This document shows, one piece after another, positions 4,376 to 18,276 of a DNA stretch of 33,729 nt (within the stretch, counting starts at the first letter, position 1; the number at the start of each line of letters is the position of its first letter). This DNA is from Lachnospiraceae bacterium. GTDB lineage: Bacteria; Bacillota; Clostridia; Lachnospirales; Lachnospiraceae. Where the stretch lies: positions 1-33,729 of the forward strand of contig JAFRLH010000082.1 in NCBI GenBank assembly GCA_017431345.1, read 5' to 3'. Made by a program: the position numbers and the translations under genes. Under the pieces are notes generated by a model. The model saw only the letters and a program-made list of their open reading frames with translations, was not told the DNA's origin and did not search any database.

Positions 4376-5044
4376 ATGCAATACGAAATCAAAGGCGGTG
4401 TTTTCCCTGTTGTGGAATGCAGTCTCAGTGCAAACGAATCCATGATCACAGAAAAAGGCTCCATGGTCTGGATGAGCCAGAATATGGATATGCAGACAAC
4501 AGGCGCAGGCGGTTTCGGCCGAATGTTCTCGGGAGAAAGCATTTTTCAGAATGTTTACACTGCAAAAGGCGGTCCCGGCATGATCACTTTCGGTTCGAGC
4601 TTCCCAGGTAAGATTCTCCCGGTCGATGTCAGTTATGGCAGCTGGATCTTCCAGAAACAGGCATTTCTGGCTTCGGAATCCTCCGTACAGTTAAATGTGC
4701 ATTTCCGCAAAAAGGCAGCCGCAGGATTCTTCGGCGGGGAAGGCTTTATCATGCAGAAGCTTTCCGGCAGAGGCATCGCTTTTGTGGAAATAGACGGTGA
4801 ATGCATTGAATATGATCTGAGACCTGGTGAGAAGCTGATCGTTGATACCGGAAATGTCGCCGGATTTGAAGCGAGCATAAACATGGATATTCAGAGCGTA
4901 CCGGGACTGAAGAATAAACTGTTCGGCGGCGAGGGACTGTTCAATACGGTTCTGACCGGTCCCGGAAAAGTGCTGCTGCAGACAATGCCGATCAGCAGCG
5001 TGGCAGCATCGATCATCCCGTATATTCCCAAAGGAAGCAGCTGA
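4376..5044 (+). CDS. AIM24-family (TIGR00266/DUF124) protein
   Basis: Protein of 222 residues matching the AIM24/TIGR00266 family of beta-rich proteins, whose function in bacteria is not settled. Recognisable features are the opening MQYEIKGGVFPVVECSLSANESM, the GSMVWMSQNMDMQT stretch, glycine-rich GGFGRMFSGES and GFFGGEGFIMQKLSGRG, and the closing GPGKVLLQTMP. There is no signal peptide or membrane segment. AAAGGAGAG at 4362-4370 precedes the ATG. It sits alone between divergent lexA and the recombinase, with its own candidate promoter and terminator. The LexA box at 4240-4253 lies upstream of that candidate promoter, so SOS control of this gene is possible but not shown. Confidence 0.85.
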   Translation: MQYEIKGGVFPVVECSLSANESMITEKGSMVWMSQNMDMQTTGAGGFGRMFSGESIFQNVYTAKGGPGMITFGSSFPGKILPVDVSYGSWIFQKQAFLASESSVQLNVHFRKKAAAGFFGGEGFIMQKLSGRGIAFVEIDGECIEYDLRPGEKLIVDTGNVAGFEASINMDIQSVPGLKNKLFGGEGLFNTVLTGPGKVLLQTMPISSVAASIIPYIPKGSS

Positions 5045-5068
5045 TAAAAGGCTGCTGCGGTACCGGAT

Positions 5069-5097
5069 AACGGCTTCGGAAGAGGCCGTTTTTTTTT
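5069..5097 (+). terminator. Terminator of the AIM24-family gene
   Basis: AACGGCTTC at 5069-5077 pairs with GAGGCCGTT at 5082-5090 (one G-T pair) around a GGAA loop and runs into nine T (5089-5097). Confidence 0.88.
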
Positions 5098-5104
5098 GTA
5101 TGTA

Positions 5105-5133
5105 TTGACAAATGCAGAGCGGGATGCTATTCT
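5105..5133 (+). promoter_or_regulatory. Strong promoter upstream of the XerS-like gene
   Basis: TTGACA at 5105-5110, a 17-base spacer and TATTCT at 5128-5133 give a consensus-like sigma-A promoter. The transcript would begin near 5140, about 290 bases before the recombinase ATG, so the repeats at 5145-5303 would lie in the leader RNA. A second TATAAT at 5404-5409 lacks a matching -35 and would start transcription inside the ribosome site, so I do not call it. Confidence 0.65.
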
Positions 5134-5144
5134 TCAAATACACC

Positions 5145-5303
5145 CAACTATTCGCAAAAGAAAACTTTAACGAATAGTTGAGGCGTCATTTGACAAGGTT
5201 TTATACTTGCTTTCCCAGTCCGCCTCAACTAATTCGTTAAAGTTCAACAAATAATTTATCTACAGATTTTAACAAGTCCGCCCTCAACTAATTCGTTAAA
5301 GTT
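5145..5303. repeat. Cluster of inverted and direct repeats in the leader of the recombinase gene
   Basis: Four related elements lie here. CAACTATTCG at 5145-5154 is an exact inverted copy of CGAATAGTTG at 5171-5180. A 23-base unit at 5163-5185 (core AACTTTAACGAATAGTTG) recurs in inverted orientation at 5221-5244 with one extra A. The inverted form recurs again at 5279-5303. The last two copies share an AGTCCGCC prefix, making direct repeats 5217-5244 and 5275-5303, spaced about 58 bases. The core itself is an imperfect dyad with AACT and AGTT ends around a CG centre. In RNA, 5145-5154/5171-5180 and 5163-5185/5221-5244 are mutually exclusive hairpins. The 386-base stretch 5045-5430 holds no gene. 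Confidence 0.85.
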
Positions 5304-5326
5304 GATCACGCCCGCAACATATAATT

Positions 5327-5365
5327 TGTCATTCTGAAGCCACCTGCGGCTGAAGAATCCACCGC
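5327..5365. repeat. Short palindromic element, REP-like
   Basis: TCATTCTGAAGCC at 5329-5341 and GGCTGAAGAATCC at 5348-5360 form a hairpin with two stems separated by a tandem G-A mismatch and a 6-nt loop. The TCATTCTGA...GAAGAATC ends resemble small dispersed palindromes that I recall from many bacterial genomes. Family membership is from memory and unverified. Confidence 0.5.
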
Positions 5366-5430
5366 TTTTATTTTTCGGTTTTATTACAACTGATCATAAC
5401 GATTATAATTTTTCAGAAAGGACTTACTAT

Positions 5431-6492
5431 ATGCCTTCCCGTTCTTACCACGAACAGCTTGATAAAGCCAACACCATCAAACTCCGTGAACTTATGGAAG
5501 GACTCCCGGACTTTGTCCCCACCTTCTTCAGAGGCATCGACCAGACAACTTCCTCCCGCACAAAAATCGCTTACGCCTATGATCTTCACGTATTCTTCGA
5601 TTATCTTCATCAGTCACACCCGGATTTTAAGGACCGCGAAATTGCTTCTTATGCCGTCACTGATCTTGACAGGATCAAATCCGTTGATCTTGAAAAATAC
5701 ATGGATCATCTTCGTTATTATTCTAACGAAGATACGGAGCGTGTGAACCAGGAACGTGGCATCATGCGCAAAATGTCTTCCCTGAAGACTTTTTATAACT
5801 ATTTCTTCAAAAAAGAAATGATCTTTACGAATCCGACTGCGCTCGTTTCACTGCCGAAACTTCACGAGAAGGAAATCATCCGGTTGGATATCGACGAGGT
5901 CGCTGATCTTCTGGACCAGGTGGAATCCGGTGAAAAGCTGACTGAAAAGCAGCAGGCGTTCCATGAGAAAACAAAGATCAGGGATCTTGCCCTGATGACA
6001 CTCATGCTGGGAACCGGCATCCGTGTCTCCGAATGCATCGGCCTGAATATGGATGATATCGATTTCCGCAACGCCGGGATCCATATCCACAGAAAAGGCG
6101 GCAAGGAAGTCATTATTTACTTCGGGGATGAAGTGGAGGAAGCGCTCAGAGTCTATGAAAACGAACGAAAACATATTCTTCCGGTAAAAGGACATGAAGA
6201 AGCATTTTTCCTTTCACTGCAGCGCAAAAGGATGAGTGTCCGCAGCGTGGAAAACCTGGTCAAAAAATATGCCAGGACTGTCACCACGCTGAAAAATATC
6301 ACGCCGCATAAGCTGAGAAGTACTTACGGCACCAATCTGTACAGGGAAACCGGTGATATCTATCTGGTCGCCGATGTACTCGGCCACTCTGATGTTAATA
6401 CGACCAGGAAGCACTATGCCGCGCTGGATGACGAGCGTCGCCGCAGCGCAAGGAATAAAGTGCAGCTTCGGGAAAAGAAAGAAAACGAATAA
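5431..6492 (+). CDS. XerS-like tyrosine recombinase
   Basis: Site-specific tyrosine recombinase of 353 residues. The N-terminal core-binding domain covers about 1-165 and the catalytic domain about 175-340. All catalytic residues are present: R198 (GTGIRVSE), K222 (RKGGKE), H293 and R296 (TPHKLRSTYG), H319 (LGHSDV) and Y329 (KHYA). The length and the AFHEKTKIRDLAL and RKGGK segments resemble streptococcal XerS (356 residues), a single recombinase that resolves chromosome dimers at a site next to its own gene, rather than paired XerC/XerD of about 300 residues. AAAGGA precedes the ATG by eight bases. It lies between lexA and the yneA-like gene. It could instead be an XerC-type or element-derived integrase, but no element genes surround it. 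Confidence 0.85.
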   Translation: MPSRSYHEQLDKANTIKLRELMEGLPDFVPTFFRGIDQTTSSRTKIAYAYDLHVFFDYLHQSHPDFKDREIASYAVTDLDRIKSVDLEKYMDHLRYYSNEDTERVNQERGIMRKMSSLKTFYNYFFKKEMIFTNPTALVSLPKLHEKEIIRLDIDEVADLLDQVESGEKLTEKQQAFHEKTKIRDLALMTLMLGTGIRVSECIGLNMDDIDFRNAGIHIHRKGGKEVIIYFGDEVEEALRVYENERKHILPVKGHEEAFFLSLQRKRMSVRSVENLVKKYARTVTTLKNITPHKLRSTYGTNLYRETGDIYLVADVLGHSDVNTTRKHYAALDDERRRSARNKVQLREKKENE

Positions 6493-6598: not shown

Positions 6599-6898
6599 TC
6601 ATCTTTTAATAGTGTAGATCATGATATAAGCACCGGGATGAAGTGCGGAATCATTTATAATATGGTTCATTTCCTTCAGATCCCTGACATATTCCCTGAT
6701 ATCCTGCGGATCGCTGCTCCCGCAGAATTCCTCTGAAATAGACCAGAGTGTATCTCCCGGCAGGATCTGTACTGAAGAGTATGCTCTCGGCAATGTATCG
6801 CGTCCGGATGTCGCAAGTGTACGCGCTCCGAAGCTGCCGATAAATAATATGGCAAGCAGTATTAATACTGTCACTGTTCGAAATGCTTTTCTGTTCAT
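6599..6898 (-). CDS. yneA: YneA-like SOS cell-division suppressor (TM + LysM)
   Basis: Protein of 99 residues with one N-terminal membrane segment (VTVLILLAILFIGSFGA, about 9-25), a short linker, and a LysM domain (VQILPGDTLWSISEEFCG to the end, about 43-97). This is the architecture and size of Bacillus YneA, which delays septation during DNA damage. GGAGGAGAG precedes the ATG. The promoter carries three LexA-box-like sites, which strongly supports an SOS role. In B. subtilis yneA sits directly divergent from lexA; here the AIM24-family and recombinase genes lie between. A generic LysM wall protein is the alternative, but the promoter argues against it. Confidence 0.87.
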   Translation of the reverse strand: MNRKAFRTVTVLILLAILFIGSFGARTLATSGRDTLPRAYSSVQILPGDTLWSISEEFCGSSDPQDIREYVRDLKEMNHIINDSALHPGAYIMIYTIKR

Positions 6899-6908
6899 CT
6901 CTCTCCTC

Positions 6909-6922
6909 CGAACATTTGTTCT
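6909..6922. promoter_or_regulatory. LexA box 1 of the yneA-like gene
   Basis: CGAACATTTGTTCT matches CGAAC-N4-GTTC closely. It lies downstream of the start of transcription, adjoining the ribosome site, where bound LexA would act as a roadblock. Confidence 0.8.
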
Positions 6923-6932
6923 GTGTGGTTAC

Positions 6933-6961
6933 AATATATCACCCGAACATATGTTTGTCAA
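6933..6961 (-). promoter_or_regulatory. yneA-like gene promoter
   Basis: On the minus strand a perfect TTGACA (6956-6961), 17-base spacer and TATATT (6933-6938) form a very strong sigma-A promoter. The central LexA box fills part of the spacer, so LexA binding would exclude RNA polymerase. Confidence 0.88.
6944..6957. promoter_or_regulatory. LexA box 2 of the yneA-like gene
   Basis: CGAACATATGTTTG is a near-perfect SOS box located between the -35 and -10 of the promoter, touching the -35. Confidence 0.87.
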
Positions 6962-6968
6962 GCGTTTT

Positions 6969-6982
6969 CGAACATATTTTCG
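6969..6982. promoter_or_regulatory. LexA box 3 of the yneA-like gene (degenerate)
   Basis: CGAACATATTTTCG has an intact CGAAC half and a weak second half. It lies just upstream of the -35, 25 bases centre-to-centre from box 2. Confidence 0.5.
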
Positions 6983-6991
6983 ATTTCCGCC

Positions 6992-18227: not shown

Positions 18228-18276
18228 GATCATCCTCCGCGCTCTCCCCGTGACCCCGTCAGATGATTTGTAAAAG

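Follow-up and report, generated by a model that had tools for sequence, protein, structure and literature searches.

Chromosome dimer resolution (dif) sites generally have two arms of about 11 bp around a centre of 6-8 bp, usually occur as a single copy, and lie at the replication terminus or the switch in GC skew. The XerS/difSL system of streptococci and lactococci uses a 31-bp site with an 11-bp centre, as described in the consulted part of Castillo et al. 2017 (PMC5357621), and the excerpted text of Nicholson et al. 2022 (PMC9765430) presents the XerL/dif system of Legionellales as a single-recombinase system that was long overlooked in a whole order. We analysed a stretch of 33,729 nucleotides from a Lachnospiraceae bacterium (GenBank assembly GCA_017431345.1, contig JAFRLH010000082.1; hereafter the window), in which a palindrome with all of these general dif features lies upstream of a gene for a single Xer-type tyrosine recombinase. 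Lachnospiraceae rank with the most common bacteria of the human gut and rumen. The open-access PubMed Central literature yielded no paper on a Lachnospiraceae dimer-resolution site and, as far as we searched it, the site is new in sequence and host group.

Judged from sequence, the palindrome is very probably the dif of a single-recombinase Xer system, and this system probably extends through Lachnospiraceae and further families of Clostridia. The 34-bp palindrome, built on an 11-6-11 core, is conserved, occurs mostly once per genome, and lies both upstream of the recombinase gene and at the GC-skew switch. A dif site in general is recombined by the Xer recombinase of its host, and chromosome dimers follow from its loss. 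In the mechanism that we propose, the 353-aa recombinase would bind the two 11-bp arms with their conserved outer AAC/GTT, both dif sites of a chromosome dimer would come together at the division septum, and strand exchange within the 6-bp spacer would restore monomers; binding, cleavage, recombination, and septal (FtsK-type) control at dif are what we infer. In draft genomes the site could be used to locate the terminus by sequence, and it offers a ready plasmid assay.

A candidate dif site upstream of a single recombinase gene

The first-pass annotation of this DNA, made from the letters alone, had suggested an atypical dif beside the recombinase gene, and this idea is now strongly supported because the site is conserved, keeps a conserved position upstream of the gene, lies at the terminus, and is present in phages. 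Its view of the repeats needed revision. It had described four related units with a 23-base repeat as the dyad core; the repeats are real, but they are one dif and two inverted half-sites, and the symmetric unit is one imperfect 34-36-bp palindrome (5145-5180). The exact 10-bp inverted pair that it reported (5145-5154/5171-5180) is present and sits inside a longer inverted pair with 16-nt arms (5145-5160 and 5165-5180) that are 88% complementary. The layout of the candidate dif is outer 3, arm 11, spacer 6, arm 11, and outer 3 (Table 1), and the consensus across genomes is AAC-TATTCGCNAAA-N6-TTTWACGAATA-GTT. The 28-bp core pattern has a single match in the window, with 0 mismatches, and any match at ≤3 mismatches occurred in 2/100 shuffles. 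Between the source genome of the window (G000) and its sister genome (G003) the 34-bp site is identical and the flanks have diverged.

The consensus promoter proposed upstream is also present, and both of its hexamers are unchanged in the alignment to G003. The promoter scan by itself is weak because the interval 4900-5600 holds 2 promoter-like sites versus a shuffle mean of 1.1. From this promoter, dif would lie about 6-40 bp past the predicted transcription start in G000.

Table 1. Coordinates of features in and around the candidate dif site (position 1 is the first nucleotide of the window).
Feature	Position	Strand	Description
Predicted sigma-70-type promoter of the recombinase gene	5105..5133	+	TTGACA-17 nt-TATTCT, TG before second hexamer
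Maximum of window cumulative GC skew	5126	.	20 bp before the site
Candidate dif site, 34 bp	5146..5179	+	AAC TATTCGCAAAA GAAAAC TTTAACGAATA GTT
dif left arm	5149..5159	+	TATTCGCAAAA; consensus TATTCGCNAAA (column counts, 141 sites)
dif central spacer, 6 bp	5160..5165	+	GAAAAC; varies among species
dif right arm	5166..5176	+	TTTAACGAATA; consensus TTTWACGAATA (column counts, 141 sites)
Hairpin 5' strand, 23 bp	5163..5185	+	Last 3 spacer nt, right arm, GTT, GAGGCG flank
First inverted copy of dif right half, hairpin 3' strand	5221..5244	-	1-nt insertion; on the + strand: AACTAATTCGTTAAAGTT
Second inverted copy of dif right half	5282..5303	-	Equal 1-nt insertion; absent in G003
Single Xer-type tyrosine recombinase, 353 aa	5431..6492	+	XerS-like, below XerS, XerC, and XerD cut-offs

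The site is conserved, mostly unique, and linked to the recombinase gene

The first-pass annotation had held that repeats missing upstream of orthologous genes, or scattered through the genome in many copies, would speak against its idea; we found conserved and mostly unique sites. Upstream sequence was read for 30 orthologue loci, the window's included. The 29 others, congeners among them, were chosen by protein and not by site; ≤1.5 kb upstream of each was searched and 18 fixed core positions were scored. This reading revealed a common palindrome with arms TATTCGCNAAA and TTTWACGAATA and a centre that has changed. At ≤2/18 mismatches it is found at 14/29 of these loci, with a spacer of 6 in all, and neither spacers of 3-5 and 7-11 nor shuffled sequence gave a match at any locus (0/29 each); at 3 mismatches, 15/29 loci have a site with spacer 6. 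The outer AAC/GTT, which lie outside the search pattern, are 79-94% conserved in 141 sites, and the site length is therefore about 34 bp. Most of these 141 sites were selected by pattern, and the agreement of 17/18 fixed core positions in 140-141 of them is largely by construction.

Among 41 relative genomes, 21 have the site at ≤1 mismatch, exactly one copy in 19 of these, and in 14 of the 21 it lies ≤10 kb from the orthologue. Three named records picked from pattern hits likewise have one 0-mismatch site each (3/3 genomes). At least 45 of 150 family genomes have the site at ≤1 mismatch, and a looser search, at ≤3 mismatches, matches 96/150, though a backwards control shows clear noise there. 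For linkage we counted pattern-selected sites whose fetched stretch contained a recombinase match of ≥40% identity, leaving out two weak matches (L146, 29%; L168, 37%). The site is upstream of the gene in 84/84 distinct pairs (85 pairs, one duplicate), at 15-4844 bp with a median of 790.

Beyond the family, we sampled 196 genomes of the class and called orthologues at E ≤ 1e-50. The site occurs in 9/34 genomes with an orthologue versus 1/162 without (Fisher p = 5e-7), and 8 of the 9 sites share a contig with the orthologue and lie upstream of the gene. An exact scan of a named species collection gave at least 118 stretches with the site; the titles of those listed are Lachnospiraceae, Clostridia, Clostridiales, Eubacteriales, and similar, with one Christensenellaceae and one Defluviitaleaceae. 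In three sites from other families of the class (G243:C1:2270629, G311:C1:771591, and G219:C1:86247), the arms are perfect inverted repeats, TATTCGCAAAA-CACAAG-TTTTGCGAATA.

The site lies at the GC-skew switch

Along long contigs, GC skew turns from plus to minus at the site. Skew maxima were taken as local maxima within 60-240 kb of joined sequence on and around the site, with the remainder coarsely sampled. Relative to the site, the cumulative maximum lies at -5.9 kb in G065 (a 6.93-Mb single contig), +6.0 kb in G156, -1.2 kb in G178, and +1.4 kb in G311, which belongs to another family of the class. In the complete genome AP025576.1 (Lachnospiraceae bacterium CE91-St56, 7.29 Mb) it lies at +3.2 kb, and the site is at 49.6% of the record. 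The first-pass annotation had named the skew switch as a comparison to make for this locus, and the distances are 20 bp in the window and 1.2-6.0 kb in the five other genomes. Skew in the window is +0.091 left of dif and -0.074 right of it; five family-matched genes, through the recombinase, are on the forward strand and the next two on the reverse strand.

A single Xer-type recombinase below the XerS, XerC, and XerD cut-offs

The recombinase carries a Phage_integrase domain, and its best NCBIfam model is XerS (NF003462). The earlier wording "XerS-like" does not extend to XerS itself: the score is 187.8 bits, the cut-off is 267, and the site has only spacer 6 at ≤2 mismatches; we therefore rejected XerS membership. 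The protein also stays below the models of XerC (174.5 bits, cut-off 335.15) and XerD (about 157-159 bits, cut-off 329.6). Aligned to Escherichia coli XerD, it covers the positions of Arg, Lys, HxxR, His, and Tyr, which we take to be the active-site residues. Matches in the PDB include XerD (1a0p, E 2.3e-20) and, more weakly, the XerH chain 5jjv (E 3.7e-8). The recombinase has a match at E ≤ 1e-80 in 34/41 relatives and at any level to 0.001 in 36/41.

A canonical dif with XerC/XerD elsewhere in the genome had been raised as an objection. No G000 protein exceeds the XerD cut-off of 329.6, and the best match to that model is the window recombinase, the only protein to which the XerC model was applied. 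Some relatives hold a second Xer, since 7/41 have a protein over the XerD cut-off. As for a canonical site, a search pattern that we take to represent the Bacillus-type dif gave 0/41 relatives at ≤3 mismatches; this result carries little weight, since the 7 XerD-bearing relatives also gave nothing and the search thus had no positive control.

The gene convergent with the recombinase gene (6599-6985) encodes a LysM protein that is weakly similar to the division suppressor YneA (38.5 bits, cut-off 60). Upstream of it are GAACATATGTTT-like palindromes, which resemble LexA boxes.

Several further observations weigh against the dif reading. At the thresholds used, 15/29 orthologue loci and 25/34 orthologue genomes of the class sample have no site; diverged sites are the likely cause. 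Spacers of another length produce 3 chance-level matches when 3 mismatches are allowed (2 with spacer 7, 1 with spacer 11), noise is common at 2-3 mismatches, and even at 1 mismatch the backwards control matches 3/196 genomes of the class sample, versus 10 for the site. Two sites are found in G020 and G036 and three in G197. Site and gene are on different contigs in G034, G033, G028, G035, G040, and G102, and 52 kb apart in G036; in G005, which has the site, the orthologue search found none. Finally, skew in G178:C1 also turns from plus to minus at a second place, near 0.4 Mb (0.38-0.48 Mb), for which a large inversion or an assembly fault is suggested.

Two good sites with differing spacers were seen in one genome in three cases (G036:C2:4805 and C21:85611; G090:C51:9695 and C7:27606; G142:C60:20610 and C6:2526). 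Such sites are candidates for integrated Xer-dependent elements or contamination.

Inverted half-sites form a recurrent, optional hairpin

The 23-base unit of the first-pass annotation, with its two inverted copies, overlaps the right half of dif. The two downstream half-sites are inverted copies of the dif right half, and either can pair with it in a long hairpin; this hairpin is recurrent but optional and raises a concrete question for Xer recombination. The 13-mer AACTTTAACGAAT, common to all three units, has 3 exact copies in the window plus one at 18266 with 2 mismatches, and at ≤1 mismatch there is none elsewhere in the window; 4 matches at ≤2 mismatches were reached by 0/100 shuffles. 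For the 291-nt leader the predicted folding energy is -63.7 kcal/mol (z = -5.0), with a main stem of 5163-5185/5221-5244, and the second copy could alternatively pair with strand 5163-5185, as the first-pass annotation had proposed. Between the half-sites and the start codon, G000 and G003 both carry a piece of a dispersed repeat (5316-5394; TGTCATTCTGAAG..CTGAAGAATCCACCGC..CGGTTTT), which has 12 further matches in G000.

We scanned 250 bp on either side of the site for half-sites in eight combinations of side and orientation, with right halves of other species as control queries. Only one combination is clearly enriched: the right half, inverted, downstream of the right arm is found at 10/132 sites at ≤2/15 mismatches versus 1.8% in the control, and the remaining seven gave 0 or 1 match each. 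With one indel allowed, an edit distance ≤1 over 17 nt is reached at 9/135 sites, and ≤2 in 0/675 shuffled regions. One half-site tally counts the loci L092 and L095 twice, and the nine hairpin sites include two sister pairs (G000/G003 and L090/L109). The bulged pattern AACTNATTCGTTAAA occurs in 6/150 family genomes and, among the matches listed, lies beside dif in two, G000 and G020. A different half-site, GTCAATTTTACGAATAGTT or a near variant, lies 60-92 bp left of the site at L092:4750, L095:6285, and L168:478, on the side of the recombinase match, and its inner bases differ from the site's spacer.

The stems consist of 3-6 spacer bases, the arm, GTT, and then 2-8 further pairs, which differ among species with complementarity kept in each. 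A single bulged base sits on the 3' strand at about the same place in 6/8 loci (G003 left out); comparison of L090 (perfect) with its sister L109 (bulged) suggests that the insertion came after copying. The offset is 51-58 nt in 7/9 hairpin sites, two sister pairs among them, and 15 in L114 and 24 in L050. Two tandem inverted copies are found in the window, L163, and L179. The inverted half-site right of the site in L163 lies within a tandem repeat of about 93 bp, and second copies may for this reason have arisen by tandem duplication.

On a tree of 102 recombinases, in which L146 was kept despite a very long branch and from which L074, L163, and L179 are missing because their stretches hold no recombinase, the 6 hairpin-labelled rows need 4 changes. 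As few changes are needed in 2/500 label shuffles, a figure this low because the six rows contain two sister pairs. Without G020 the number is 3: its hairpin site is on the small contig C123 and a different, clade-typical site lies 38 bp from the G020 recombinase, so the former may be contamination and the four placements may be three.

For the extra half-sites alone, a functional accessory element of dif is possible, if rather less probable than the absence of such a role. It might act as a folded, single-stranded form of dif, offer the recombinase an accessory binding site, or work as a terminator that keeps transcription out of dif. The enrichment of a single side and orientation, the indel-tolerant matches beyond any shuffle, and the stems that differ in sequence and still pair all favour a function, and the repeated bulge and shared offset are features that are hard to explain. 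Against this stand the absence of half-sites at over 90% of sites, which makes them dispensable for dif, the scatter of the few placed rows over the tree, and the fact that simple inverted copying yields pairing for free, so that pairing alone is no proof of selection. As a terminator for genes heading to dif the hairpin would be poor: the reverse-strand stem is followed by ..TTTTGCG and its GC-rich part is at the loop end.

It is also conceivable, though unlikely, that in some Lachnospiraceae the right half and 3-6 spacer bases, pairing with the inverted copy that repeatedly has a bulged base, are the trace or working substrate of single-strand recombination by the lone Xer, perhaps with filamentous phages that infect these hosts as partners, an idea that we liken to CTXphi attP or integron attC. 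The hairpin search covered 80/85 viral stretches and found 5 weak matches, none of them filamentous, and the filamentous stretches without a hairpin weigh on this idea. We also considered the hairpin as a phage junction and rejected it, as the neighbours of the four hairpin loci for which they were listed (L090, L109, L163, and L074) are host-type genes with no phage-type genes beside them.

The first-pass annotation's alternative, a switching RNA leader whose mutually exclusive 5' hairpins control recombinase expression, fares poorly and is very improbable. It could draw on the strong predicted fold and on the two competing 3' strands in G000, with one such hairpin in the sister G003. However, the second copy is missing in G003, and only G000 and G003 of the nine hairpin sites have the hairpin ≤300 bp before the recombinase gene; it also occurs 760 (L114), 2919 (L109), and 4844 bp (L090) from the recombinase and in stretches that hold no recombinase (L074, L163, L179, and L050), whereas the congeners G002, G004, G006, and G007, in which the site lies about 1 kb upstream, lack a hairpin of this kind. 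The window has no Rfam match at the gathering threshold, and the 5' strand is a dif arm, conserved for another reason. From the folding and the search for hairpins elsewhere, we rejected an RNA switch, as the hairpin tracks dif rather than the gene leader.

Viral contigs carry the site pattern

The exact 20-base pattern is found in 85 viral stretches, three of which also hold the orthologous host gene (L292, L314, and L316). Five stretches (L303, L313, L321, L345, and L346) represent one filamentous phage type with adhesin-like, Zot-like ATPase, and replication genes; the Zot-like ATPase is 98-100% identical across them, and none has a match to the window recombinase. A marker check limited the set to these five: in L314, L316, and L375 it gave only a weaker adhesin-like match, and in L292 and L364 nothing. 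Of the 10 L345 proteins scanned, one is a Zot-like ATPase (PF05707, E 4.9e-8), one is RstB-like (PHROG, E 1.1e-5), and no integrase was found. In two of the five, L303 and L345, the site sits right at the end of the sequence. The spacer of the filamentous phages, GTCTAG, is also found in L101 (Clostridium sp. E02), L147 (uncultured Lachnospiraceae), and L155 (Hungatella sp.); on the basis of this shared spacer, the five stretches are probably Xer-exploiting inoviruses of Hungatella/Enterocloster-type hosts. Flanking direct repeats are reported for inoviruses of Enterocloster and Hungatella in the part of PMC10061712 that we consulted, a text portion with 0 occurrences of "Xer", "integrase", and "recombinase" and with "dif" only inside other words. 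A dif-like site may explain these direct repeats.

In a second viral group the site lies near a large terminase gene: the protein cluster is found in 29/80 stretches, with 28 matches within 1.5 kb, and the terminase family assignment held for 2/2 tested. In addition, 11/80 viral stretches have a gene for an FtsK/SpoIIIE-like ATPase (2/2 tested), possibly a phage-borne activator of the host recombinase. Tailed phages have a host-type dif next to terminase genes, and some of them also have an FtsK-like ATPase. In L302, L315, L318, L328, L334, and L360, which were tested, and in others within L291-L370, terminase, portal, or packaging genes lie near the host dif sequence.

Operator and attachment-site explanations

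That the repeats are only an operator, through which the recombinase or another regulator controls its own gene without a recombination function, is hardly credible. In G000 and G003 the site is directly downstream of the conserved promoter, and 24/85 site-gene pairs lie within 200 bp. Yet site and gene are separated by 200-4844 bp in 61/85 pairs and sit on different contigs in some genomes, and the site has no fixed orientation, agreeing with the gene in 57 of the 85 pairs and opposing it in 28; it also lies at the skew switch in six sequences and is carried by phages. Regulation may be an addition to dif function: in G000 and G003 the predicted 5' leader of the gene includes dif, so the dif-bound recombinase could repress its own promoter there. 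Equally hard to sustain is the view that the palindrome is not a host dif but a mobile element's attachment site or remnant, a view that filamentous and tailed phage contigs with the site and inverted half-sites as possible element leftovers might favour, because most site-bearing genomes have one copy, at the replication terminus and tracking a chromosomal recombinase, and phage exploitation of dif is already known from the portions consulted of PMC5357621 and PMC9765430.

Comparison with known Xer systems

The very probable dif described here shares features with several known systems. In its 28-bp 11-6-11 layout and one copy near the skew switch it resembles XerCD/dif, as given in the consulted text of Kono et al. 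2011 (PMC3025954); that system has two recombinases, whereas G000 has no protein over the XerD cut-off. XerH/difH of Campylobacter and Helicobacter, as summarised in the available part of PMC5357621, likewise has a single recombinase and a site near its gene, but the recombinase here matches the XerH chain only weakly.

The half-site hairpin recalls the CTXphi attP fold and integron attC, in which, according to the excerpt of PMC3089051, opposite dif-like sequences tens of nucleotides apart pair in single-stranded DNA. The likeness is partial and concerns the layout, and only the right half is copied here. The same excerpt describes one working dif and non-working copies that remain after CTXphi integration. 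Compared with such an attP scar, inverted dif-like copies near dif are present here, and a phage body and second junction were not found at L090, L109, L163, and L074.

The closest systems in concept are XerS/difSL, which was tested and of which this is not a member, and XerL/dif, which is likened by description and not by sequence. With XerS/difSL, as portrayed in the part of PMC5357621 consulted, the Lachnospiraceae system shares one tyrosine recombinase of about 355 aa with its gene near a dif-like site and, by eye, a TT..C..GAAA character of the arms as printed there for difSL. It differs in its 6-bp centre within 28-34 bp, compared with an 11-bp centre within 31 bp, and in a gene that is often 0.2-5 kb from the site or unlinked. 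XerL/dif belongs to another phylum and has dif and xerL >400 kb apart, as stated in the excerpted PMC9765430; like the system described here, it relies on a single recombinase, escaped notice for long, and has a dif that a mobile element mimics.
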